Assembly (NCBI GenBank): GCA_950054485.1
Contig: CATLPD010000002.1
Span: 312,644-376,643, forward strand
Direction of reading: 5' to 3'
Origin: an uncultured Alphaproteobacteria bacterium
Lineage (GTDB): Bacteria > Pseudomonadota > Alphaproteobacteria > Micavibrionales > CSBR16-224
DNA length: 64,000 bases
Shown: positions 27,819 to 31,930 of the stretch, piece after piece
Layout of the letters: every line of letters starts with the position of its first letter
How positions within the stretch are numbered: the stretch's first letter is position 1
The notes under the pieces: generated by a model
Seen by the model: only the letters and a program-made list of their open reading frames with translations
What the model was told of the DNA's origin: nothing
Databases searched by the model: none
Position numbers and translations under genes: made by a program

Positions 27819-28534
27819 CAGGCGACCTTGGTTTCTTTTTCTAGAATATCATGTGCAATTTTTTTAGCGACTAAAGCGGGCTGATCGCTCTGGGTTACAG
27901 CACGCCCAATCACAAGATAACTCGCACCATTTTCCAAGGCTTTTATCGGCGTCATGATACGTTTTTGATCATCGGTATTATCGGCATGAAGTCTTATGCC
28001 GGGCACAATCAAATCTAAATGCGAATCAAGTTTTTGGTTCAAGACTTTCAATTCATGCGGTGAGCATACAAGACCATGAACCCCTGCTTTTTCTGCAATC
28101 GCGGCATAATCGAGAACGGTTTGCTGGACCGTTTTTCCGGATATTGTTTTTATATCAGCGTCATCCAAGCTGGTCAGAACAGTGACTGCCAGTATTTTTG
28201 TTTTTGTATTTTCAACAGCTTTCACAGCAGCTTTCAACATCTCTGTTCCACCTGCGGCATGTACCGTCACAAAGTCAGGTTTCAGATCAAGCGTATTTTG
28301 AACCGATTTAAAAACCGTATTCGGAATATCATGAAACTTAAGGTCCAGAAAAAACTTTGTGTCATGATCAGCAGCTTTTAAAACCGAACGCACGCCATCA
28401 CTTCCAAAACGCATAAAAAACTCAAGCCCCAGCTTGATACCCTTAAAATAGGGCGACACATCTGCAGCAAGTTTTTGTGCTGTTTTCAGATCAGATGTGT
28501 CAATCGCAAGAAATATCGGCGCCCTGTTGGTCAT
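27818..28534 (-). CDS. pyrF: Orotidine 5'-phosphate decarboxylase
   Basis: Last step of UMP synthesis. 238 aa from ATG 28534; a GTG one codon earlier is possible. The catalytic motif is FFLDLKFHDIPNTV (Asp-x-Lys-x-x-x-Asp), and the phosphate site is YLVIGRAVTQSDQP. The ATG overlaps the stop of the upstream unknown gene (TGATG) and the stop overlaps trpF, so the three genes form a tight operon. Confidence 0.96.
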   Translation of the reverse strand: MTNRAPIFLAIDTSDLKTAQKLAADVSPYFKGIKLGLEFFMRFGSDGVRSVLKAADHDTKFFLDLKFHDIPNTVFKSVQNTLDLKPDFVTVHAAGGTEMLKAAVKAVENTKTKILAVTVLTSLDDADIKTISGKTVQQTVLDYAAIAEKAGVHGLVCSPHELKVLNQKLDSHLDLIVPGIRLHADNTDDQKRIMTPIKALENGASYLVIGRAVTQSDQPALVAKKIAHDILEKETKVA

Positions 28535-29751
28535 CACATCACTTCGCTTGTCAGTTTTGTATCAAGTTTGCCTTTGGTATATTTCGAGATGTCAGTCGAA
28601 AGCAAAGGCTCGTCCCAACTGCTTCTAAGTCGGTATACATCCAGATAACACAGCCCCTGCCCCCAGGCATCAGTCAAAATCGTTTTAACATCATTCAATC
28701 CAGAATCCGGCTCCAAAATGATAGTGTGAGGAACGGCGCCTACAATAATAGATTGTAAAGCCGCGGATATCATAACCTGCTGGGATGTTTGAATCCCGCC
28801 GAGCCCCTTATACAGATCATCTGCGCAAATGGAAACCGAAAGCCCCGACAAGGCTTGTTTTTTTGATTTAATATCAAGCTGATAAAAGCTATTTTTAAAC
28901 CTGTTTTTTAAATCTGAATTCAGGCTTGTTTCCGAGAAAACATGAGACTGAAGTGGGCTTGCTTGACGTCCAATAGCGACATCAATAATCTTTTTTATTC
29001 TTTTGTCAGGAAAATCGGCATTCTCAGCATCTATAAAAGCAGCTTGGGCTTGTATGATACCTAACAAAGCCATTGCACTATTCAAAGCATCGCCATCCCT
29101 TGCAAGATCGCACCCCAGAAGCGCAAGTGCATCGAAAATGCCTTTTACGATAATTTCCTGCCCCTTGGTTTCTTTGATTTTTTCAAAAAGCATCTCGAAA
29201 TAAATTTCACCATCTTGGGATATATAGTCGCTGAGGACTAAATCAGAAGTGTCATGATCGTTCAGGAAATACTTTTGGGTGATCAGATTGATACGCATAC
29301 CCTGCCAGATATAATGCACCAACTGCGCCCATATTTTGGCAGCACGAATGTCATGAACCGATCCGTTTTCCTTGCGGTATGATCCACCGGTCAATGCAGC
29401 TTCGAAAAACTTATCAGGCGTAAAAATCTGATAAACAAGGTCATTCCCCGTATCAGTCTCTAACATTTTTTCAATCTGATCAAACCCCGGGACAGCTTCA
29501 AAGCCCCATTCCGAATATTGCAGGGCCATCTTAATCAGCCCTTCCGGCACGCCGGATTCGACAGCTGTTTCAATGGCGCATCCAATATCGCCGTTATTTT
29601 CCATGGCCTCAAAAATATTATCCAAGAAATGTTTGAAATAGCTAATGCCGGCAGATAGGGCGTGATGACGATTTGCCTCGAAATAAAGGCGGTTCAAAAC
29701 AGCCTCGATCCCCTGATCTTCAACAGATAAAATATGTGTGTTGGCAGCCAA
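28534..29751 (-). CDS. Unknown protein at the head of the pyrF-trpF operon
   Basis: 405 aa if it starts at the TTG at 29751, which has GGGG seven bases upstream; no ATG occurs in frame near the start. It is soluble, helical in the first two thirds (HHALSAGISYFKHFLDNIFEAM), and has a C-terminal segment (SQQVMISAALQSIIVGAVPHTIILEP, split by Gly) of alternating hydrophobicity. No motif known to me. The one-base overlap with pyrF is strong evidence that it is a real, cotranslated gene. A link to nucleotide or tryptophan metabolism is not shown by the sequence. Confidence 0.72.
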   Translation of the reverse strand: MAANTHILSVEDQGIEAVLNRLYFEANRHHALSAGISYFKHFLDNIFEAMENNGDIGCAIETAVESGVPEGLIKMALQYSEWGFEAVPGFDQIEKMLETDTGNDLVYQIFTPDKFFEAALTGGSYRKENGSVHDIRAAKIWAQLVHYIWQGMRINLITQKYFLNDHDTSDLVLSDYISQDGEIYFEMLFEKIKETKGQEIIVKGIFDALALLGCDLARDGDALNSAMALLGIIQAQAAFIDAENADFPDKRIKKIIDVAIGRQASPLQSHVFSETSLNSDLKNRFKNSFYQLDIKSKKQALSGLSVSICADDLYKGLGGIQTSQQVMISAALQSIIVGAVPHTIILEPDSGLNDVKTILTDAWGQGLCYLDVYRLRSSWDEPLLSTDISKYTKGKLDTKLTSEVM

Positions 29752-29855: not shown

Positions 29856-29886
29856 CTTGCAAAAGGCACAAACCCAAGGATGCGGC

Positions 29887-30288
29887 ATGCTTGACAAGAT
29901 AAAATCTTTTTTCGGCGTACTATCGACATTGCAAATCAATATGGTGACTTTGTTTCGCGGCAAAAAAATCGGCGAAGATATGTACGGAAACATTTATTAC
30001 ACGGGTAAACCAAGACCCTATAGCAAGCGCGAACGCCGCTGGGTAATCTATAACGGTATTGCAGAGGCCAGCAAGGTCCCGCCTGAATGGCATGGCTGGC
30101 TGCATCACCAGACAGATATTTTCCCGAATAAAGATCAGGACAGCGAATATCGTCAAAAATGGCAAAAGCCGCACATGCCGAATCTGACCGGAACTGATAA
30201 AGCCTATGTGCCTGCAGGACATGCTTCGCGTCATCAGGAGCGCGCAAAAGCGACCGGTGATTATCAGGCATGGACACCACCCGAATAA
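29887..30288 (+). CDS. NDUFA12-like NADH:ubiquinone oxidoreductase subunit
   Basis: 133 aa; the ATG at 29887 has CAAGGA eight bases upstream, and an earlier frame start at 29857 lies upstream of the predicted transcription start. Blocks VGEDMYGNIYY-type (here IGEDMYGNIYYTG), RRWVIYNG and PPEWHGWLHH are those of the NDUFA12/B17.2 family. The family is an accessory subunit of mitochondrial complex I whose bacterial relatives are found mainly in alphaproteobacteria. Followed by mlaD and a DUF2155 gene in the order seen across the class. Confidence 0.93.
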   Translation: MLDKIKSFFGVLSTLQINMVTLFRGKKIGEDMYGNIYYTGKPRPYSKRERRWVIYNGIAEASKVPPEWHGWLHHQTDIFPNKDQDSEYRQKWQKPHMPNLTGTDKAYVPAGHASRHQERAKATGDYQAWTPPE

Positions 30289-30337
30289 ACATATAAAAAC
30301 AAAGTAATCCATAACTGATTCGCATAAGGAATTGAAA

Positions 30338-30847
30338 ATGCAAAGAAATGCCGTAGAGACACTTTTAGGCGCCGTCGTTATTGTTGTGGCCGTCGCCTTT
30401 GTATTGTTCTTTCAGGAAGTTGGCCAAGTCGGTCCGACAGAGGGATACGAGCTGAAGGCAAAATTCTCCAAGATTGACGGTCTTAACCGTGGTTCGCCTG
30501 TGCGCATCAGCGGCGTCCAAGTTGGAAAAGTAACGGATTTCGAACTGGACCCTGAAACTTATTCAGCAATTGTCAGCATGCAGATTCAGGACGGCATCAG
30601 CCTGCCCTATGATACAGCCGCCGTTGTCAGCAGCGAAAGCCTTTTGGGCGGAAAGTTTTTGTCGCTCGAGCCAGGCGCTGACGAAGAGATGATGCAGGAT
30701 GGTGATATCATTGAATTCACACAATCCACACCGGGTATTGAAGCTTTGTTGGGTCAAGCTATCTATAGTTTCTCGAAAGACAAAACTTCGAGTGAAGACG
30801 CGCCCGAAGACGTAAGTACACAAGAAGACACCGATACCGAGGAATAA
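30338..30847 (+). CDS. mlaD: MCE-domain lipid-transport protein
   Basis: 169 aa from ATG 30338 (AAGGA at nine bases). Residues 6-26 are a membrane anchor, then one MCE domain: YELKAKFSKIDGLNRGSPVRISGVQVGKV, and SSESLLGGKFLSLEPG. The C-terminal 35 residues are Ser/Glu/Asp-rich. It would form the periplasmic hexameric ring that works with MlaE and MlaF, encoded about 6 kb upstream. Short of the E. coli MlaD length only in its tail. Confidence 0.93.
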   Translation: MQRNAVETLLGAVVIVVAVAFVLFFQEVGQVGPTEGYELKAKFSKIDGLNRGSPVRISGVQVGKVTDFELDPETYSAIVSMQIQDGISLPYDTAAVVSSESLLGGKFLSLEPGADEEMMQDGDIIEFTQSTPGIEALLGQAIYSFSKDKTSSEDAPEDVSTQEDTDTEE

Positions 30848-30851
30848 AATT

Positions 30852-31328
30852 TTGCTGATCCGCTTTCTAAGCCTGCTGTTTTTCACATCGCTGATTTTTG
30901 TTCAGCCTGCAACCGCAGAGATGACAGACACCGATATCGCAGTCCTGAGAGGGCTGGATAAGGTTTCAGCACGTATTCAAACTTTTGAAACCAATATTGA
31001 TCAGACAGTTCGTTTTGGCAAAAACCTATATATCCGTGTTCGTGCCTGTCGTAAATCAGACCCGATTGATACACCTGAATCAGCTGCCTTCATGGAAGTC
31101 TGGCAAAAAGATCTGGATACTGAGGAATCACATTGGATTTTCAGCGGATGGATGTTTGCATCCAGCCCGGCTTTGTCTGCTATGGATCACCCTGTCTATG
31201 ACGTTTGGGTTATTGACTGTAGAAACTCAGTAACCGAGTCCAGCGAAGAAGCAAACGAAACCGACGAATCAAACGAAGAAGCATCTGAAACGCCCCCAGA
31301 AGAAGAACCTGAGATTCTGGAAGATTGA
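30852..31328 (+). CDS. DUF2155 periplasmic protein, 3' end antisense to aat
   Basis: 158 aa. TTG start with GAGGAA inside the end of mlaD. A signal peptide covers residues 1-22 (cleavage near ATAEM). The DUF2155 domain runs from LRGLDKVSARIQTFE to HPVYDVWVIDC. Two cysteines (RACRKS and VIDCRN) may form a disulfide. The domain normally ends near VIDC, but here a Glu-rich tail of about 33 residues continues, overlapping aat on the other strand by 133 bases. Function of the family is not established; its position with NDUFA12-like and aat genes is conserved. Confidence 0.88.
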   Translation: MLIRFLSLLFFTSLIFVQPATAEMTDTDIAVLRGLDKVSARIQTFETNIDQTVRFGKNLYIRVRACRKSDPIDTPESAAFMEVWQKDLDTEESHWIFSGWMFASSPALSAMDHPVYDVWVIDCRNSVTESSEEANETDESNEEASETPPEEEPEILED

Positions 31329-31930
31329 TCCGGCACAAAATTCACATCCAGTTTTAATGCATTTTCAAGTTTCGCCAAATATTCATCACGCGGCAATTCG
31401 TAAACGCCAAATTGCTTTAAATGCTGATTGATAAACTGGGTATCAAAAATACTATATCCCTGCTGTTTTAAATGTGCACACATATGCACCAGACAGATTT
31501 TGCTGGCATCTGTCTTATCTGAAAACATACTTTCCCCAAAAAACGCTCCACCGATTGCAAGGCCGTAAAGCCCGCCAACAAGATTGCCATTATGCCAGGC
31601 CTCGACCGAATGGGCATGCCCGGCGCGATGAAGGGCAACAAAAACATCGCGGATTGCGCCATTGATCCAAGTATCCGTTCGTCCGGGGGCTGATTTTGAA
31701 CAGCCTTGCATCACGCCTGCAAAATCATAATTAAAACCGATATCATAAGGATTTTGCCTGACCGTTTTGCGTAGACGCCGCGGTACATGCAAATGTGATA
31801 TTGAAAGCTGCCCACGCATTTCCGGATCATACCAATATATATCTTCGGCCGTGGCGCTATCTGCCATGGGGAATAGACCGCGCGCATAGGCCATTAAAAC
31901 CAATTCCGGTGTCATTTGCTGAACTTCCAT
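31196..31930 (-). CDS. aat: Leucyl/phenylalanyl-tRNA--protein transferase
   Basis: Adds Leu or Phe to proteins with basic N termini, creating N-degrons for ClpS/ClpAP. 244 aa. Family blocks: LVLMAYARGLFPMAD, WYDPEMRGQL, DTWINGAIRDVF, GHAHSVEAWHNGNLVGGLYGLAIGGAFFGESMF and FIDTQF-type (IFDTQFINQHLKQFG). After the conserved domain comes a Ser-rich stretch (SSSGGVSDASSFDSSVSFASS), then LQSITQTS at the end. The final 44 codons lie antisense to the DUF2155 gene. The start ATG 31930 lacks a clear ribosome-binding site; ATG 31915 has GGAAG upstream and is the alternative. Confidence 0.93.
   Translation of the reverse strand: MEVQQMTPELVLMAYARGLFPMADSATAEDIYWYDPEMRGQLSISHLHVPRRLRKTVRQNPYDIGFNYDFAGVMQGCSKSAPGRTDTWINGAIRDVFVALHRAGHAHSVEAWHNGNLVGGLYGLAIGGAFFGESMFSDKTDASKICLVHMCAHLKQQGYSIFDTQFINQHLKQFGVYELPRDEYLAKLENALKLDVNFVPDQSSRISGSSSGGVSDASSFDSSVSFASSLDSVTEFLQSITQTS

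Follow-up and report, generated by a model that had tools for sequence, protein, structure and literature searches.

A probably ancient tail-to-tail antisense overlap between the DUF2155 and aat genes of Alphaproteobacteria

Results

Two conserved genes that share their ends

The window, a stretch of 64,000 nucleotides from an uncultured member of the Alphaproteobacteria, contains two protein-coding genes on opposite strands that run into one another. On the forward strand lies a DUF2155 gene (PF09923; 30852..31328, 158 aa, TTG start), whose product scores 112 bits against a profile cut-off of 27, and on the reverse strand lies aat (PF03588; 31196..31930, 244 aa), encoding leucyl/phenylalanyl-tRNA-protein transferase, with a score of 213 bits against a cut-off of 22.7. 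They share 133 bp (31196..31328) in the phase (123:213), exactly the extent given in a preliminary description of this DNA, and since stop codons form both limits the overlap could not have been created by a misannotated start. The Aat stop TAG (31196..31198, reverse strand) is made from the third base of a Val codon and the first two bases of a conserved DUF2155 Tyr codon (31197-31199) within the sequence HPVYDVWV; the DUF2155 stop TGA (31326..31328) faces an Aat Gln codon (31325-31327).

Upstream of the DUF2155 gene and on the same strand are NDUFA12 (29857-30288) and, between the two, mlaD (30332-30847), and the order NDUFA12-mlaD-DUF2155/aat is the same in most relatives. An ORF of 405 aa upstream of NDUFA12 (28534-29751, reverse strand) gave no Pfam hit at E 0.001. 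The MlaD protein too ends in an acidic tail (...SSEDAPEDVSTQEDTDTEE), and does so without any overlap, so the overlap is not the cause of acidic tails on these neighbouring envelope-type proteins.

Within the shared DNA, the last beta strand of DUF2155, YDVWVIDC (residues 116-123, 31197..31220), is antisense to the QSITQTS that ends Aat together with its stop, giving the pairing of VWVIDC with LQSITQTS that had been described before. The Glu-rich DUF2155 tail that follows (residues 124-158, 31221..31325) is antisense to a Ser-rich linker in Aat (residues 201-226, 31253..31330), and between this linker and the Aat stop is a predicted C-terminal helix (residues 227-241, 31208..31252) with the hydrophobic face V233, F236, L237 and I240.

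The AlphaFold model of the window Aat superposes on E. coli Aat (2dps) with Z 26.3 and rmsd 1.9 over 199 residues, so that the protein has the fold as well as the profile of its family. It is flexible over residues 201-226 (pLDDT 60-65 over about 201-230) and the helix is predicted with a pLDDT of about 95 (residues 231-240). In the DUF2155 model the last strand spans residues 116-124 and the tail (131-158) has a pLDDT of 58-77. In the alignment Asp117 and Cys123 of the strand are invariant and Tyr116 and Trp119 nearly so; Cys66 is the other invariant cysteine. Comparison of DUF2155 with PDB sequences gave no match and the fold search no convincing one (Foldseek best E 0.05); the best by VIA was a weak match to Helicobacter CcsBA (7s9z; Z 6.2, rmsd 3.1, 83 residues).

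What the phase dictates

Bases 1, 2 and 3 of each DUF2155 codon lie opposite bases 2, 1 and 3 of an Aat codon, with third positions facing each other; this is the phase named (123:213) in PMC2174442 and frame -2 in PMC4182739. A DUF2155 codon N1N2x is thus read as comp(N2)comp(N1)y in Aat: Asp and Glu give Ser, Ser gives Asp/Glu (TCN) or Leu (AGY), Arg gives Leu (AGR) or Arg (CGN), Pro gives Gly, Thr gives Val and Ala gives Ala. In the window the Aat overlap has 17 Ser residues, each paired with one of the 17 Asp/Glu residues of DUF2155, which bears out the earlier observation of Glu-rich and Ser-rich tails on the same DNA, and over the 112 overlapping loci described below the map is exact (416/416 for Asp and 267/267 for Glu).

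Only two contexts can produce a stop in the Aat frame: a DUF2155 Tyr that follows a codon ending in T or C, and a His or Gln that follows one ending in T. It is for this reason that each of the reciprocal stops coincides with a Tyr, Gln or His codon in the partner. Because the DUF2155 tail of the window contains no Tyr, His or Gln, the open Aat frame opposite it is unremarkable on its own. Likewise LQSITQTS, minus its first Leu, is YDVWVIDC read on the opposite strand, and the phase fixes it save for the choices between Q and H and between I and M. The preliminary description had reasoned that conservation of both terminal motifs would make the overlap old; the overlap does prove old, on the evidence of its spread, and LQSITQTS has to be set aside as an independent witness, since its conservation, largely forced by YDVWVIDC, proves nothing alone.

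These rules give substance to a reading in which only DUF2155 is selected and Aat simply runs on into a stop-poor phase until it ends on YDVWVIDC read backwards. The dictated motif is what that reading expects, as is the finding that 98 of 140 non-overlapping DUF2155 tails are open in the same phase, and a published caution holds that apparent conservation in frame -2 can be artefactual (PMC4182739). We consider this account of the locus as a whole quite unlikely, for reasons that come from codon choice in the neighbourhood of the helix.

Spread across the class

An even sampling of the class yielded 89 analysable DUF2155 loci, of which 65 have an adjoining convergent aat; 49 of the 65 overlap fully, all of them ending on the same Tyr, so that conservation extends beyond close relatives. 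Within the order of the window, DUF2155 was found in 135 of 142 genomes, and 28 loci overlap fully, by 88-487 bp. Pooling these with 84 from elsewhere in the class, where the overlap is 31-145 bp long (median 64), gives 112 full overlaps in which two conserved families have their stops inside each other's frames in several species. The phase is identical in all 112, with lengths of 31-487 bp, compared with a 34:25:17 division between phases amongst the 76 convergent loci that do not overlap fully. Aat stops on the DUF2155 Tyr in 107 of the 112; the five exceptions, all from family f1 of the order, have Phe in place of Tyr, and Aat there extends by 2-3 codons to the next His or Gln. The DUF2155 stop lies opposite an Aat Tyr (56 loci, often part of a Phe-Tyr pair), Gln (44) or His (12).

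Every locus overlaps in families f1 (109-154 bp), f2 (88-106 bp), f3 (139-487 bp) and f6 (91 bp), as do two genomes of f7 (163 and 250 bp). In the loci L067 (487 bp) and L042 (373 bp, from a genome in four contigs) both domains are intact. That lengths vary while phase stays constant and both frames stay open in the 112 loci agrees with changes by threes, and supports the earlier proposal that a low-complexity stretch expanded inside the overlap and altered two proteins at once. The term 'repetitive' applies to this stretch in the sense of low complexity and not of a true tandem array: in the window, TRF reports 3.3 copies of a 9-mer with 71% matches and a score of 32, and a repeat-expansion mechanism was rejected.

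Most long annotated bacterial overlaps are errors (PMC2478687), and a sequencing error or missed stop that lengthens one gene must be weighed here as well. The overlap recurs, however, at 112 loci in independently assembled genomes, some of them complete in a single contig (L032, G002), which refutes that reading and leaves it virtually no probability. Paracoccus ferrooxidans pFER4, moreover, was independently annotated with a 37-bp version in which Aat ends in LLQEITQTS. Another overlap, of 67 bp, is found in Niveispirillum lacus.

There are also relatives with separate genes and without LQSITQTS, the very case that the preliminary description had named as contrary to an old overlap. Family f4, to which Micavibrio-like genomes belong, shows either gaps between the genes or partial overlaps of 4-53 bp in place of the full overlap, and its Aats have a different C-terminal segment, for example ...DYLEMR; in Sinorhizobium meliloti the two genes are separate; and at 22 loci with unlinked aat (one gene counted twice) an Aat ending in an LQSITQTS-type motif was never found. 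Several of the unlinked Aats stop right after the core, and the helix is thus not a universal feature of the enzyme. A FastTree phylogeny of both proteins, its root placed provisionally at the midpoint, requires 24 changes in the state of the overlap, with overlapping loci distributed over both halves. Because of this spread over both halves we read the lineages with separate genes as losses, and repeated loss from an old overlap appears to be the simplest reading of the tree. One DUF2155 protein, that of Methylobacterium bullatum (L298), has a long Pro/Gln-rich tail without aat overlap, and hence a DUF2155 tail is able to grow alone.

Selection on the Aat helix

As the conservation of the motif is dictated by DUF2155, independent evidence for Aat was sought in codon choices that are synonymous in DUF2155. 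We number DUF2155 codons from the conserved Cys; the codon at C+1 is antisense to a Leu of the helix. In the window C+1 is Arg124 (AGA, 31221..31223), a diagnostic position at which an AGR codon gives Leu237 in Aat. Where DUF2155 has Arg at C+1, the ratio of AGR to CGN is 25:3 in genomes with the overlap, 0:17 in those without it and 286:3289 in the background. In Lys-dominated control columns, drawn in the same genomes from the genes in question and their neighbours, it is 3:82 (p 1e-18), and a mutational path from Lys to Arg is rejected on this basis as an explanation for AGR at this codon. The 25 AGR tips require 18 state changes on the tree, and tree-independent pairs average 5.1 against 0.1, although just 8 of the pairs are on well-supported branches (median p 0.06). 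Three overlapping loci (L097, L170 and L244) use CGN at C+1, which places Arg in the Aat helix, and their Aats end in GRQSSTQTS, SRQSSSQRS and FRQSSTQTS, respectively.

Without overlap, C+1 of DUF2155 is mostly Leu, CGN-encoded Arg, Glu and other residues, and not Lys or AGR-encoded Arg. Leu directly follows the last DUF2155 Cys in f4 loci (L016, L008, L030 and others, with DCLE, DCLS or DCLD), which suggests a preference of DUF2155 when it is unconstrained, compared with the Lys or AGR-encoded Arg of overlapping genomes.

The neighbouring positions tell a similar story. The residue read in the Aat frame is hydrophobic more often in overlapping than in non-overlapping loci at C+1 (90% versus 27%), C+2 (81% versus 22%), C-2 (65% versus 34%) and C+5 (54% versus 34%), and at C+3 and C+4 hydrophobics are rarer in overlapping loci than in controls. 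The pattern is that of a predicted amphipathic helix, V--FL--I, specific to overlapping genomes. Ser codons of DUF2155 at C+1, C+2 and C+5 divide 20:8 between AGY (Leu in Aat) and TCN; elsewhere in the tails of the order, TCN (Asp/Glu in Aat) exceeds AGY by 171:19. For the gene cores of the order the corresponding TCN:AGY count is 496:375, and for its MlaD tails 25:30; in non-overlapping outgroup tails Ser is also TCN-biased (p 3e-7), though less strongly, and in f4 it is not biased.

Third-base tests in the DUF2155 core (a pyrimidine before Tyr, Gln/His and Ile/Met) gave large deviations that were similar in non-overlapping controls and were discarded. The sole third-base difference concerns the Val codon that keeps the Aat stop (87:0 versus 70:10, p 5e-4; outgroups alone, p 0.035). 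That the core tests differ so little from controls favours selection on DUF2155 alone, and the selection ratios of the core point the same way (0.07-0.08 for DUF2155, 0.77-0.81 for Aat). Selection on DUF2155 alone does not account, however, for the Arg codons at C+1, silent in DUF2155, for the hydrophobic pattern at C+1, C+2, C-2 and C+5 and the choice of Ser codons, strongest in overlapping genomes, or for a confidently predicted Aat helix. For the helix it is therefore strongly disfavoured. The statistics of codon choice indicate instead that the DNA of the helix is under Aat's own selection, visible at DUF2155-silent sites, with silent codons keeping Leu on the hydrophobic face.

The linker

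The linker presents a different picture. Pairwise OLGenie-style ratios show purifying selection on the DUF2155 frame, with NN/SN of 0.07 (0.03-0.15) in the core and 0.44 (0.34-0.58) in the tail. In the Aat frame, where few sites are informative, SN/SS is 0.87 (0.66-1.11) for the linker and 0.81 (0.44-1.41) for the core; the linker is under DUF2155 constraint, with NS/SS of 0.63 (0.46-0.85). Judged by these ratios, most residues of the Aat linker seem almost unconstrained, and for the sequence of the linker selection on DUF2155 alone is plausible.

Overlapping tails contain 1.8 Tyr, His or Gln per 100 residues compared with 5.5 in non-overlapping tails, and the 48 such residues that they do contain produce no antisense stop, against 5.8 expected from context-aware codon resampling, a count that is partly circular because a locus is called overlapping only if its frame is open. 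For the order alone, the probability that all frames are open is about 0.007 before correction for shared ancestry. Composition contributes to the scarcity of these residues, as they are scarcer in MlaD tails from f1-f3, too, than in those from f4. DUF2155 tails are acidic without overlap too (28% Asp+Glu in f4), and for this reason we regard the Glu-rich tail as primary and the Ser-rich linker of Aat as its consequence.

The complementary 3' ends of the two mRNAs might instead serve regulation, aat and the NDUFA12-mlaD-DUF2155 operon controlling one another. The convergent arrangement is kept throughout the class and arfA-mscL provides a precedent for such antisense control (PMC10070815). Repeated loss of the overlap speaks against a regulatory role, as does the number of terminator-like signals in the region (2, below the mean of 4.5 for shuffled sequence, with no terminator in the overlap above chance), and regulation does not predict the amphipathic codon pattern; we regard it as unlikely. 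One terminator-like hairpin for aat lies within the overlap (31277-31297, reverse strand) and is no commoner than in shuffled sequence.

Discussion

We propose that the tail-to-tail overlap of DUF2155 and aat dates from early in the history of the Alphaproteobacteria, that the Aat helix within it is under selection, and that its linker is elastic and changes by triplets; we hold this to be probable. Wobble positions face wobble positions, Asp and Glu of DUF2155 being read as Ser in Aat, and each stop overlies a Tyr, Gln or His codon in the other gene. The codon statistics show that the last DUF2155 strand and the next five or so codons also encode the predicted amphipathic C-terminal helix of Aat, which is under selection of its own. 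Aat would have to be translated to its end through the whole linker in order to reach the helix, and because of this the linker would be limited to triplet changes and to sequences that avoid antisense stops. Acidic tails rich in Ser, Ala, Pro, Gly, Lys and Thr would comply with both limits automatically, leaving the linker free to stretch, to an overlap of nearly 490 bp, and it would become Glu-rich in DUF2155 and Ser-rich in Aat. Lineages that separate the genes would release both ends. The simplest guess for the helix is that it docks on the core of its own enzyme.

A bolder form of the proposal is that an ordered strand and an ordered helix, both selected, have shared DNA since the alphaproteobacterial ancestor, with the intervening linker of both proteins a single elastic element, and that this is amongst the oldest and widest antisense coding overlaps of cellular genomes. 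We put the chances of this as even.

Surveys attribute nearly all long overlaps between real genes to misannotation and place most of the few convergent examples within very close species; the DUF2155/aat pair is a counter-case that covers dozens to hundreds of bases and spans a class. Six-fold degenerate codons that are silent in one gene offer a clean test of whether a second gene is also read and selected, and here they indicate that it is. The many natural losses amount to a replicated experiment on the mutual constraint of two genes: where the overlap is absent, DUF2155 does not retain the residues and codons from which the Aat helix is written. One low-complexity expansion, furthermore, can give two proteins new tails simultaneously.

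A search of the open-access literature found no paper describing the DUF2155/aat pair. Its closest likeness is arfA-mscL of the Gammaproteobacteria (PMC10070815), in which unrelated conserved genes, one of them translation-related, also lie tail to tail, overlapping in some lineages and separate in others. There, however, antisense RNA control is the function reported, and the overlapping part in E. coli is the mscL 3' UTR, whereas in DUF2155/aat the coding ends of both genes overlap, selection is seen on both proteins and the DNA that they share lengthens as a linker. Long convergent overlaps of the (123:213) or frame -2 class (PMC2174442, PMC2478687, PMC4182739) have in common with DUF2155/aat the phase, which protects both readings, and in most cases a length of more than 60 bp. 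Amongst the 54 possibly true convergent overlaps above 60 bp in PMC2478687 most are kept just in very close species, unlike DUF2155/aat, with its class-wide range, length of up to 487 bp and statistically supported selection in the second frame. Proteins are likewise encoded on both strands at pop, laoB and asa of E. coli O157:H7 (PMC7103648, PMC5810103, PMC6294744), but those are proposed novel genes opposite an established one, whereas here two widely conserved families meet end to end. What is new in comparison with known convergent overlaps is the spread across a class, a length of up to 487 bp, two ordered elements encoded by the same DNA, and codon selection that acts, by the statistics above, on the second frame.
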